Positions 36,377 through 38,602 of a stretch of DNA of 38,602 nt are shown here, one piece after another. The notes under the pieces were generated by a model. The model was not told the DNA's origin. It ran no database searches and worked only from the letters and a program-made list of their open reading frames with translations. This DNA is from Candidatus Doudnabacteria bacterium (GTDB lineage: Bacteria; Patescibacteriota; Doudnabacteria; UBA920; O2-02-FULL-48-8). The position numbers were made by a program, and so were the translations under genes. Numbering within the stretch: the first letter of the stretch is position 1; each line of letters starts with the position of its first letter. The stretch covers positions 1 to 38,602 of the forward strand of contig JACQHB010000008.1 in assembly GCA_016199215.1 (NCBI GenBank), written 5' to 3'.

Positions 36377-36847
36377 TCAAACTCTGCTGCCAACTTTAAC
36401 CTTCTTGGCCTTGGCCTTGGCTGCTTTTGGCAGAATCACGGTCAATATCCCGTCCTTCAAATCAGCGGAGACATTCTCTATATCTACGTCCACTGGCAAA
36501 ACCACGGATCGGCTGAAACTTCCCCAATAACACTCCTGGTAAAAATAATCCGAAGCCTCTGCGTCAAAGTCCCTCTTCCGCTCACCCCGAATGGTGACCA
36601 TGTCATTGGCGATCGTGACATCAATGTCTTCCGGCTTTACTCCCGCTATAGTTGACTTGATGATCACGTTATCTTTCGTCTGATACATATCGATGGTCAA
36701 TTGTCCTTCGTATTCCGAAAGCCAATCTTCCGAATTCTGGGCTTGGTTAACGACTTCGTCTTGTTCCGTTTCTTCATCCTCCTCAACCTTTTGTTCAACC
36801 GCTTGCGTCCCCATTAACTTGTTGATTAAATTCTTGTCTTTAGCCAT
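36377..36847 (-). CDS. Small heat-shock protein, Hsp20/alpha-crystallin type
   Basis: 156 aa. It is an ATP-independent holdase. A Glu-rich, flexible N-terminus (VEQKVEEDEETEQDEVV) leads to the alpha-crystallin domain from ~55: DMYQTKDNVIIKSTIAGVKP, TIRGERKRDF, FSRSVVLPVDVD, and LKDGILTVILPK, ending with the usual A-x-x-x-x-V tail. Normal family length. The promoter TTGACA-N17-TACTAT is at 36900-36872. Its -35 box overlaps the end of the palindromic element next door. Confidence 0.93.
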   Translation of the reverse strand: MAKDKNLINKLMGTQAVEQKVEEDEETEQDEVVNQAQNSEDWLSEYEGQLTIDMYQTKDNVIIKSTIAGVKPEDIDVTIANDMVTIRGERKRDFDAEASDYFYQECYWGSFSRSVVLPVDVDIENVSADLKDGILTVILPKAAKAKAKKVKVGSRV

Positions 36848-36871
36848 ATATTTATAAGTTATCGTATTTAG

Positions 36872-36900
36872 ATAGTAAGGGAATAAGTTTCTAGTGTCAA
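36872..36900 (-). promoter_or_regulatory. hsp20 promoter; -35 from the element end
   Basis: TTGACA (36900-36895), 17 nt, TACTAT (36877-36872). The -35 box straddles the left end of the repeat at 36896-36967 (CGGGGTTGACA read outward). Confidence 0.65.
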
Positions 36901-36967
36901 CCCCGTTTAGAAGTAAGGCGCAAAGCGCCTGCCGATGCGTTTTTGCATCGGACTTCTAACGGGGTCA
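36896..36967. repeat. Palindromic repeat with ACCCCGTTAGAAGT ends
   Basis: Terminal inverted repeats (ACCCCGTTTAGAAGT left, ACTTCTAACGGGGT right) enclose two inner hairpins: AGGCGC-AAA-GCGCCT and CCGATGC-GTTTTT-GCATCGG. Folded, it is a three-way junction. The stop of the glycosyltransferase gene lies in the right arm and the hsp20 -35 in the left. It resembles a MITE or REP element. Confidence 0.75.
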
Positions 36968-38119
36968 AGCAAGGGTTTCCTGGTAATTTTTAACCTGTAT
37001 TTCTGCCTCTTGCGGGGTTACGACTGACAGCGCTTGCTCTAAATTTATGCTCGATTTTGGTTTAACAATCGCCTCGTAAGCTTTTTCAAAATTATATTTT
37101 TTTCCGGAGAGAATCTGCTCCGTGATAAACGCGGCTTCCGCTTTATTTCTGGCAAACTCCACCACCCCATTCTCTAAAAGGAATTCCAAATTTTTGGTCT
37201 CATGCCCAGGCCGGGCGTCTGTGATAATTATCGGCAACTTTTTTACTATCGCCTCGACCATTGTTGGCCCGCCGGTTTTTCCCAGCAGAACGCTTGCGGC
37301 GCTCATCAAAATTTCCATGTTGTTCACGTAACCAAGAATCTTTACCGGATGGTTGCTTGGCGGAGAAATTTTTTCCAATTCTTCCTTGAGCCGCTGGTTA
37401 GTCCCGCAAACCACGACAACTTGAAAAGACTTTTGGCTCCTTAGCAGGCGCAGAAATATTTCTTTCGTCTGCATCCGCACCAAGGCGCCGCTGGTCAGAA
37501 GCACCATAGGCATCGTGGTCAGGAGGTTTAATTGTCTTAATGCCTCCTCTTTCTGGCTGGGTCTTAAAAATTTTTCCGAAACCATTGCCCCTGTTACCGC
37601 TATCTTTGAATATGGAATTCCCAATTCCCTTAATTCTTCGGCTTGCTTGGCAATGTTGCACAAATAAAGATCGGTTCCACCGTATAGCCAAAACCTATGC
37701 AGATGGTAATCAGAAAAGGCCACGACCAGCTTCCCGACATAAAGTTTTTTTGATTTCAGATGGCTAACCACGGCGCTGGGAATGGTCTCCGTCGAGATTA
37801 TGATTGCCGGCTGGAGTTTCCTTAAGACAGCCAACAATTTTTGGGATTTTATGGAAAAGAAAATTTCCCTAAACGGAAGCAGGCAGCCGATAACGATTTT
37901 TGAGTTATACAAAAAACCCCAAAGCCCGGAGATATGCTCAAGGATAACAGAATACGTTTTTTTCCCGGCCGTAAACATTGGCCCTGATTCCAATTCTTCA
38001 AAATCAAGAATCACGGGGTCATAGATTTGGCTCTTTTTTAATTCCTCGGCTATGTTTAGCGCCGTGATTTTGATTCCATGGCCGACTGACGTATGTAAAA
38101 TTAAAACTTTTATTTTCAT
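36965..38119 (-). CDS. GT28-type glycosyltransferase (MGDG synthase/UgtP-like)
   Basis: 384 aa. The N-terminal domain reads LHTSVGHGIKITALNIAEEL and YDPVILDFEEL, followed by IVIGCLLPFREIF and VVAFSDYHLHRFWLYGGTDLYLC; the C-terminal domain has VLLTSGALVRMQTKEIF, FQVVVVCGTNQRLKEELEKI, VKILGYVNNMEILMSAASVLLGKTGGPTMVEAI. This is the layout of diacylglycerol glucosyl/galactosyltransferases and MurG relatives. Substrates are unknown; a glycolipid for the membrane is plausible. The stop lies inside a palindromic repeat, so the last codons (YQETLA) may differ from the ancestral end. tRNA-Ser is just upstream. Confidence 0.8.
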   Translation of the reverse strand: MKIKVLILHTSVGHGIKITALNIAEELKKSQIYDPVILDFEELESGPMFTAGKKTYSVILEHISGLWGFLYNSKIVIGCLLPFREIFFSIKSQKLLAVLRKLQPAIIISTETIPSAVVSHLKSKKLYVGKLVVAFSDYHLHRFWLYGGTDLYLCNIAKQAEELRELGIPYSKIAVTGAMVSEKFLRPSQKEEALRQLNLLTTMPMVLLTSGALVRMQTKEIFLRLLRSQKSFQVVVVCGTNQRLKEELEKISPPSNHPVKILGYVNNMEILMSAASVLLGKTGGPTMVEAIVKKLPIIITDARPGHETKNLEFLLENGVVEFARNKAEAAFITEQILSGKKYNFEKAYEAIVKPKSSINLEQALSVVTPQEAEIQVKNYQETLA

Positions 38120-38125
38120 AATTTT

Positions 38126-38215
38126 TGGCGGAAGCGGTGAGATTCGAACTCACGAAGGGCGTAAACCCTTACGGCTTTTCGAGAGCCGCGCCTTCAACCA
38201 CTCGGCCACGCTTCC
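38126..38215 (-). tRNA. tRNA-Ser(CGA), intact copy
   Basis: 90 nt with encoded CCA: acceptor GGAAGCG/CGCTTCC, anticodon stem CGGCT/AGCCG around CTCGAAA (anticodon CGA), a long variable arm GTAAGGG..CCCTT and T arm GTGAG-TTCGAAT-CTCAC. Its first 71 nt (38145-38215) are repeated without a change at 38527-38597. Confidence 0.95.
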
Positions 38216-38462
38216 GTTCCTGGTTAATTATGTCTCGATAATTAAGCAATCTGCGTCCTTCAGTCGTCTTTAAAAACATTTCCCTGCGCAAAGCGTCACT
38301 TTTCAACAAATATGCTTCGTAACCTAAAAGTTTCACAGGTCGAAAATTTCTAGTGGATTCGACCTTCCCTAACTCATGCTCCTTTACTCTCACATCAATA
38401 TTAGCACATGAACCTTTATAAATATCAGTATTACTCAACAATAGAAAGTAAACATAATACAT
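38169..38462 (-). CDS. GIY-YIG endonuclease, URI type, ending inside tRNA-Ser
   Basis: 97 aa. The URI/GIY-YIG fold is clear: MYYVYFLLLSNTDIYKGSC (the GIY and YIG segments are modified to YVY and YKG), RVKEHELGKVESTRNFRPV, KLLGYEAY (catalytic Glu) and ALRREMFLKTTEGRRLL. The last ~13 residues (RGRVVEGAALEKP) are encoded by the first half of the mature tRNA-Ser on the same strand, so either the stop comes from the tRNA or the natural end is lost. The gene lies exactly between two tRNA-Ser copies, which fits a homing-type unit. No ribosome binding site is seen. Confidence 0.8.
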   Translation of the reverse strand: MYYVYFLLLSNTDIYKGSCANIDVRVKEHELGKVESTRNFRPVKLLGYEAYLLKSDALRREMFLKTTEGRRLLNYRDIINQERKRGRVVEGAALEKP

Positions 38463-38474
38463 ACTTTTGTTTTT

Positions 38475-38597
38475 AGCGGGAGGATTCGCCCGGTCATCCG
38501 ACCGGGCGTCAGGTCGAATGACCTGACGAACTCACGAAGGGCGTAAACCCTTACGGCTTTTCGAGAGCCGCGCCTTCAACCACTCGGCCACGCTTCC
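38475..38597 (-). pseudogene. tRNA-Ser(CGA) copy broken in the T loop by a double hairpin
   Basis: 38527-38597 equals the 5' 71 nt of the intact tRNA (through TTCG of the T loop). The rest continues at 38475-38486 in a diverged form (AGCGGGAGGATT against AGCGGTGAGATT) after a 38-nt insertion. The acceptor end is lost. The anticodon part is perfect, but no functional tRNA can form. Confidence 0.8.
38487..38528. repeat. Double palindrome inserted into the T loop of the second tRNA-Ser
   Basis: CGCCCGGTC-ATCC-GACCGGGCG (38487-38508) and CGTCAGGTC-GAAT-GACCTGACG (38507-38528) are two 9-bp stems sharing CG. The whole lies between TTCG and CGAA, i.e. within the T-loop sequence TTCGAA, with a CG doubled at the junction. 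Confidence 0.8.
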
Positions 38598-38602
38598 TAT
38601 AC

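Follow-up and report, generated by a model that had tools for sequence, protein, structure and literature searches.

The contig end of a Candidatus Doudnabacteria bacterium (JACQHB010000008.1; the whole analysed stretch of 38,602 nt is called the window here) carries what is probably a compact homing-like element, made up of a twin DNA hairpin of about 40 bp, a small GIY-YIG nuclease gene and a tRNA part that rebuilds the invaded tRNA gene. The element is about 400 bp in size. Comparison with other genomes, mostly MAGs, establishes its anatomy, its recurrence, the existence of an empty site and the swapping of tRNA alleles.

The window has a single intact tRNA-Ser(CGA), at 38126-38215 on the minus strand (ARAGORN; Rfam RF00005, 57.9 bits), of an allele termed type B (GGAAGCGTGGCCGAGTGG..). 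A repeat finder shows that positions 38145-38215 are identical to 38527-38597 over 71 nt (100% identity, spacing 382), as an earlier note on this DNA had stated. The repeat begins at the mature tRNA 5′ end and runs through the TTCG of the T-loop; in the intact gene this boundary, TTCG^AATC, lies between 38144 and 38145. Insertion took place in the T-loop, not at the 5′ end of the tRNA. A chance origin of the repeat is ruled out by the 71 exact matches out of 71 and by its recurrence elsewhere. The copy at 38527-38597 (minus strand) represents positions 1-71 of a displaced tRNA-Ser, from the acceptor 5′ strand to the T-loop TTCG. At its TTCG^A is found a twin hairpin of 40 nt (38487-38526, minus strand; 70 bits with covariance model R1), with the sequence TCAGGTC-ATTC-GACCTGA / CGCCCGGTC-GGAT-GACCGGGCG. 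Adjacent to it, by direct reading, is a 12-nt remnant, AATCCTCCCGCT (38475-38486, minus strand), that spans the T-loop and the 3′ strand of the T-stem into the acceptor, i.e., the 3′ part of a different tRNA-Ser allele. The same 12 nt are present without change in the functional tRNA-Ser(CGA) of genomes G004 and G011. Scored together as an interrupted tRNA, the displaced copy, hairpin and remnant reach 23.5 bits, below the Rfam gathering score of 29 bits.

The GIY-YIG ORF (38169-38462, minus strand; 97 aa) runs into the intact tRNA, as had been claimed, with its last 47 nt formed by tRNA sequence. The order in the tRNA sense is tRNA 1-71 ending in ..GTGAGTTCG, twin hairpin, AATCCTCCCGCT, a 12-nt leader, the ORF and the intact tRNA. 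The earlier note placed only a GIY-YIG gene between the two tRNA copies; the ORF is there, but so are the twin hairpin and the 12-nt remnant. No recombinase gene is found in the unit, the GIY-YIG ORF being the only listed minus-strand ORF between the repeats. The displaced tRNA piece is a mosaic of two alleles, and therefore the locus has had a history of several steps. The intact tRNA-Ser retains an uninterrupted TTCGAATC T-loop, and 6 nt past this tRNA is a glycosyltransferase-like gene with an MGDG-synthase domain (36965-38119). The contig stops at 38602, five bases past the 71-nt repeat, thus the left flank of the locus is missing. Elsewhere in the window, between the Hsp20 and glycosyltransferase-like genes, is a T-shaped palindrome of about 62 bp (36900-36962), which reads ACCCCGTTTAGAAGT .. 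two inner hairpins .. ACTTCTAACGGGGT.

GIY-YIG is the only Pfam match of the translated ORF (PF01541, 33.1 bits against a cut-off of 22.6). The Tyr, Tyr, Arg, His and Glu positions are invariant across homologues, and the active-site residues are thus intact. Pairs of homologues display dN values of 0.13-0.40 and saturated dS in nearly all cases; exact dN/dS is mostly not computable because of this saturation, and the coding sequences nonetheless show purifying selection on the protein. The nearest structures by sequence profile are UPF0213 protein BH0048 (1ZG2), followed by SLX1 and I-TevI, the latter two being GIY-YIG DNA nucleases. Searches of viral contigs with peptide patterns gave no relative of the protein, no exact hairpin match was found in viral contigs, and the window protein has no PHROG match; a phage origin was rejected on the lack of viral-contig relatives by these patterns and of a PHROG match. 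One alignment, A1, proved too diverse for pattern searching.

Homologues of the window's nuclease clade were identified by protein alone in a phylum sample of 380 genomes and in named genomes. The clade spans nine or more Patescibacteria families, with hosts among Giovannonibacteria, Liptonbacteria, Staskawiczbacteria, other Parcubacteria-type MAGs and one MAG labelled Omnitrophota. All 19 distinct members, of which 18 have a place in the tree and one, L266, is frameshifted, are situated at a tRNA gene or tRNA fragment, of tRNA-Ser, Lys, Glu or Gln. A frequent occurrence of this gene away from tRNAs, which would have spoken against the earlier note, is thus not seen in any clade member. Nearly all share the window's anatomy and have twin hairpins that are built in the same way. 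No clear copy of this anatomy is seen in two weaker homologues, L271, which is truncated, and L274, which does not belong to the clade. Insertion is in the T-loop (TTCG^A) in 13 members, in the anticodon loop in three and in the D-arm in three. The three anticodon-loop cases are all in tRNA-Ser(CGA), whose anticodon loop holds TCGAA as does the T-loop. The claim that the 5′ part of the tRNA is duplicated applies to the window and to most members, but not to L289 and L290, in which the arrangement is mirrored: intact tRNA, nuclease, hairpin and tRNA 3′ end.

A tree of 168 GIY-YIG domains (80 columns) is poorly resolved, with many weakly supported forks, the domain being short. On this tree tRNA association changes 16 times as compared with a mean of 44 (minimum 36) when shuffled, the hairpin core changes 2 times versus 14.6, and tRNA isotype 23 times versus 31.8; none of 300 shuffles was as low for any of the three. 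Cut-site contexts, read off by hand, are 0.67 identical within nuclease clades and 0.30 between them (permutation p 0.0002). Contexts from the same clade but different isotypes are more alike (0.60) than those from different clades and the same isotype (0.41), thus nuclease lineage predicts the motif better than isotype does. Tree and context comparison together show insertion at a short conserved target with a clade-specific preference. Displaced and intact tRNA segments are identical over 70-73 nt within the window, L283, L286 and L287, and silent sites of the nuclease are saturated between homologues; insertions thus seem to have been recent and repeated.

Alignment of 19 hairpin copies shows standard pairs in 97.4% of cells. 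Double changes are found in 13 of 16 pairs, with 49 double-change cells compared with 11.1 in shuffled alignments, and there are only 2 one-sided changes. The near absence of G-U intermediates suggests that the structure is selected in DNA, but palindrome correction could also leave few of them. In the phylum sample of 380 genomes the hairpin is present in 17, the nuclease in 13 and both in 8 (P 2.8e-9), and by covariance model there are about one to five hairpins per genome. Most examined copies are within tRNA fragments. In the single-contig genome G010 this is so for four of five copies, and three of the five have an intact tRNA within 150 nt; zones of this width next to intact tRNAs make up 1.7% of the visible genome (P 5e-5). 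Some hairpins have no adjoining nuclease, among them hairpins at Gly and Ile tRNAs, as in G010, and others at tRNAs for Val, Arg, Ala and Leu. Copies outside of tRNAs are intergenic in G010, in G004 and on a contig of the window's own genome (C1). Thus hairpin and nuclease are separable. One further copy that fits the same model is in an apparent 23S rRNA gene (L303; G139:C48:19484-19526). Y1 transposase is absent from G010 and from five other hairpin genomes, and present in 11 of the 17; mobilisation by Y1/RAYT was rejected as a requirement, as G010 has five hairpins and no Y1 transposase.

A second type of structured, non-coding repeat was observed in G010, where 6 of 47 tRNAs (G010:C1, at 193518, 560034, 579985, 638636, 659140 and 901093) are followed by about 85-155 nt (CGGAATCGAA..CGCTGCCCCGG..) that end in an exact copy, of about 20 nt, of the 3′ end of the same tRNA. 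These repeats form a separate family of T-loop insertions with the classical 3′ geometry.

The association of GIY-YIG genes with tRNAs extends beyond the window clade. In 14 genomes of the family, GIY-YIG matches are often directly 5′ of a tRNA, with a piece of that same tRNA species further upstream. Of 151 distinct GIY-YIG ORFs counted in 49 genomes, 33 are immediately 5′ and 14 immediately 3′ of a same-strand tRNA, with one ORF in both groups; tRNAs within 200 nt are on the same strand in 46 cases and on the opposite strand in 5. Most of the 5′ loci display an old 5′ tRNA fragment with a GC-rich hairpin that breaks a loop. In Ser(GCT), Cys, Glu and Trp tRNAs the broken loop is that of the anticodon; in Gln, Pro, His, Val, Asn and Leu tRNAs it is the D-loop. 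The earlier note had suggested a search for GIY-YIG genes upstream of tRNAs with a 5′ tRNA duplication. When the 450 nt 5′ of each tRNA were scored against its own first 45 nt, a score of at least 24 was obtained for 21 of 31 tRNAs with a GIY-YIG gene upstream and for 3 of 67 without (Fisher P 5e-11). These comparative data agree with the proposal of a tiny, recurring, tRNA-targeting unit of one GIY-YIG gene and a tRNA 5′ segment. Some loci also keep the 3′ piece of the old tRNA downstream, which leaves the old tRNA split around a complete replacement: in L019 a 5′ GGATCC.. and a 3′ ..GGATCCACCA bracket a different tRNA-Val, and G013 shows a similar arrangement.

Among GIY-YIG genes away from tRNAs, 9 of 95 have flanking direct repeats that score at least 16, and in at least two of the nine the repeats are tRNA pieces not called by ARAGORN; a general rule for such genes was rejected. 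On either side of L111 and L168, which had been classed as tRNA-free, there are duplicated tRNA 5′ pieces that escaped ARAGORN, and the tRNA-linked share is thus underestimated. The window's own genome has GIY-YIG elements of other clades at tRNA-Ser(GCT), in the anticodon loop (L024; G000:C1, around 3178), and at tRNA-Gln(CTG), in the D-loop (L003; G000:C2, around 4592). In L115 (G001:C11, locus position about 1650) a GIY-YIG ORF with a half-type hairpin immediately precedes the start of a 16S rRNA gene.

The related genomes were to be checked for a tRNA-Ser without the insert, and such a site is found in G006, from the same genus, where the unoccupied locus reads RNase HII, tRNA-Ser(CGA) and the same downstream gene as in the window. 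Thus an occupied and an empty allele of one locus are at hand, the upstream flank being missing on the window side. The tRNA-Ser of the window is only 72% identical to that of G006 but 90% identical to that of G013, from another genus, and therefore alleles have been replaced horizontally. G004 and G011 are of different genera and have tRNA-Ser genes without a single difference over 90 nt. In G010 the displaced 5′ half is the same as the intact tRNA of G009 over 36 nt, and the displaced 3′ ends in G004 and G013 correspond to the end of the allele that is intact in G010. Alleles of tRNA-Ala(GGC) in G004, G011 and G012 (L195, L193 and L200) are syntenic and 63-71% identical, as opposed to 97-100% among five other genomes of the family. 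These divergent alleles possibly represent further allele replacement, thus replacement may not be confined to tRNA-Ser.

Other readings of these data should be considered. It is unlikely, in our estimate, that the twin hairpin represents a REP- or MITE-like repeat in its own right, moved by another enzyme into tRNA loops, with the GIY-YIG gene a passenger sheltered by essential tRNAs. Such a repeat would account for the hairpins that lack a nuclease or are occasionally off tRNAs, for the displaced tRNAs of L281 and L265, which have two hairpins each, and for the Y1 transposase in 11 of 17 hairpin genomes. However, hairpin type and cut-site motif both track the nuclease clade, hairpin presence tracks nuclease presence, and the five hairpins of G010 occur with no Y1 transposase. 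Somewhat less likely still is that nuclease and hairpin form a DNA-exchange system of the Ssn/NTS kind that acts on single-stranded hairpin DNA as it is taken up, allele swapping being then a by-product and not a sign of selfish homing. The nearest solved structures, UPF0213 BH0048 and the structure-specific SLX1, the strictly Watson-Crick covariation that suggests a DNA structure, and the frequent exchange of tRNA alleles are in line with such a system, whereas the few hairpins per genome, not hundreds, their being pinned to tRNA loops, and the position of the nuclease gene inside a split tRNA are not.

A toxin and antidote acting at the RNA level, whereby tRNA molecules would be cut in a loop by the nuclease and the linked intact tRNA would come from an allele that resists it, appears very improbable. 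Although the sites are loop-specific and the tRNA alleles at the window locus strongly divergent, it is in DNA that the hairpin marks the site, its covariation involves hardly any G-U pairs, the known relatives SLX1 and I-TevI act on DNA, and at several loci displaced and intact tRNA segments are the same, so that there is no difference in resistance. Least credible is an assembly artefact or a neutral tandem duplication at the contig end, a concern that the earlier note had raised. The repeat does stop five bases short of the contig end, but the same anatomy is found in independent assemblies, with TTCG followed by the twin hairpin in the T-loop in MFHO01000023, JAHJFT010000057 and SICL01000070, and TTTCG followed by the twin hairpin in the anticodon loop in the single-contig G010. 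In addition, the 71 and 40 nt joined to unique sequence are shorter than a typical short read. An artefact was rejected because the anatomy is repeated in independent contigs.

The homing-like element is thus the reading that we favor. Clade-specific sites, a covarying hairpin and allele replacement are established by the comparisons, and around them a mechanism can be proposed, in which cleavage and its causal role, the repair route, the role of the hairpin and the sharing of a promoter are inferred. The nuclease would recognise and cut a short motif of a tRNA gene. In the T-loop this would be TTCG^AA, and tRNA-Ser(CGA) has the similar TCGAA in its anticodon loop as an alternative. Repair off an occupied copy, with tRNA sequence as the homology arms, would bring in hairpin and nuclease. 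A complete tRNA would be rebuilt on one side, often as the donor allele, and the old fragment would stay as a hairpin-bearing pseudo-tRNA. The observed anatomy, read in the tRNA sense, is tRNA 1-71 (..TTCG), twin hairpin, GIY-YIG gene and intact tRNA, or, when mirrored, intact tRNA, GIY-YIG gene, hairpin and a piece from AATC to the 3′ end. Function of the tRNA would survive because the missing part is supplied. The nuclease is probably transcribed from the old tRNA promoter, with a message that would end at or in the intact tRNA. Self-cutting might be avoided by resistance of the donor allele, by hairpin-dependent recognition or by single-strand specificity. We consider it an evenly balanced proposition that such elements form an undescribed class, common across Patescibacteria, of GIY-YIG lineages that move without transposase, recombinase or intron, each with its own hairpin type and tRNA-loop motif; only for the window clade do the data show that a nuclease clade has one hairpin type as its partner. 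That cutting tRNA genes and supplying a replacement part drives horizontal turnover of tRNA alleles is given the same weight.

Double-hairpin elements are found in Allomyces mtDNA. Mobile ORFs with a foreign gene end have been described in fungal mitochondria, in atp6, atp9, cox2 and nad3 of Glomus and in atp6 of Allomyces macrogynus; such an ORF (GIY-YIG in the case of atp9) enters an essential gene, where the foreign end that it brings keeps a hybrid gene functional and the native end is displaced (PMC3630166). Both these and the window element combine a nuclease ORF with a substitute gene part and leave the displaced native part alongside. The window element differs in that it is bacterial and targets tRNA genes of several isotypes, that elements of its type usually supply the 5′ part (the 3′ part when mirrored), and that a clade-cognate hairpin marks the insertion point. 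The fungal mobile ORF may be regarded as the nearest documented mechanism, the likeness being one of mechanism only, with no common descent shown.

Small GIY-YIG nuclease genes of the SegB type are also linked to tRNA genes, but Seg elements are situated between genes and are not known to carry either a tRNA half or a hairpin that covaries, both of which are present here. Ssn of Neisseria is a small GIY-YIG single-strand nuclease with a cognate dispersed palindrome, the NTS repeats; the likeness lies in the small GIY-YIG protein and palindrome, while here a genome has only about one to five hairpins, which are placed in tRNA loops next to the nuclease gene. Short GC-rich palindromes inserted into genes, some of them RNA genes, are also known as Rickettsia palindromic elements, REP/RAYT units and yeast mitochondrial GC clusters. 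The window hairpin, unlike these, goes with a GIY-YIG clade and a single target motif, and in G010 it occurs without Y1. Islands that integrate into tRNA genes by tyrosine recombinases likewise restore the gene with a duplicated tRNA part, but the present unit has no recombinase, is about 400 bp, duplicates mostly the 5′ part and has a hairpin at the junction. SegB of T4-like phages is described as a free-standing homing endonuclease that promotes movement or amplification of a linked segment (PMC13096335).

In the same phylum, CPR rRNA insertion sequences with homing endonucleases are found within rRNA genes (PMC11270868). Homing-type nucleases thus invade essential RNA genes in both cases, but the tRNA is rebuilt here by duplication and there is no intron model match: no intron family is among Rfam matches up to E=1 in 36800-38602. 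A group I intron was rejected, as no catalytic core was matched in Rfam. An ORF of a known homing-endonuclease superfamily, intact active-site residues, a short conserved target preferred by the clade, and occupied and empty alleles are features that the window element shares with classical free-standing homing genes. However, the occupied window allele keeps an uninterrupted T-loop target, neither destroyed nor protected, and because of this retained target the element is set apart from classical homing elements. It works like a homing element and lacks one defining feature of the classical kind. In the literature consulted, mostly openly readable papers, there is no description of bacterial GIY-YIG elements with duplicated tRNA halves.

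Transfer RNA genes are usually treated as passive docking sites, and here a unit of about 400 bp swaps the tRNA itself. Judged from sequence comparison, essential tRNA genes appear to be repeatedly invaded and swapped in Patescibacteria. The sequence of a tRNA in these reduced genomes can follow horizontal exchange and not descent, as seen in identities of 72% within a genus and 90-100% across genera. Nuclease, target and hairpin make up a concrete triple. The tRNA-like protein tails and odd tRNA fragments of these genomes can be read as scars of the element, and the element may account for some of the many small GIY-YIG genes that Patescibacteria have.
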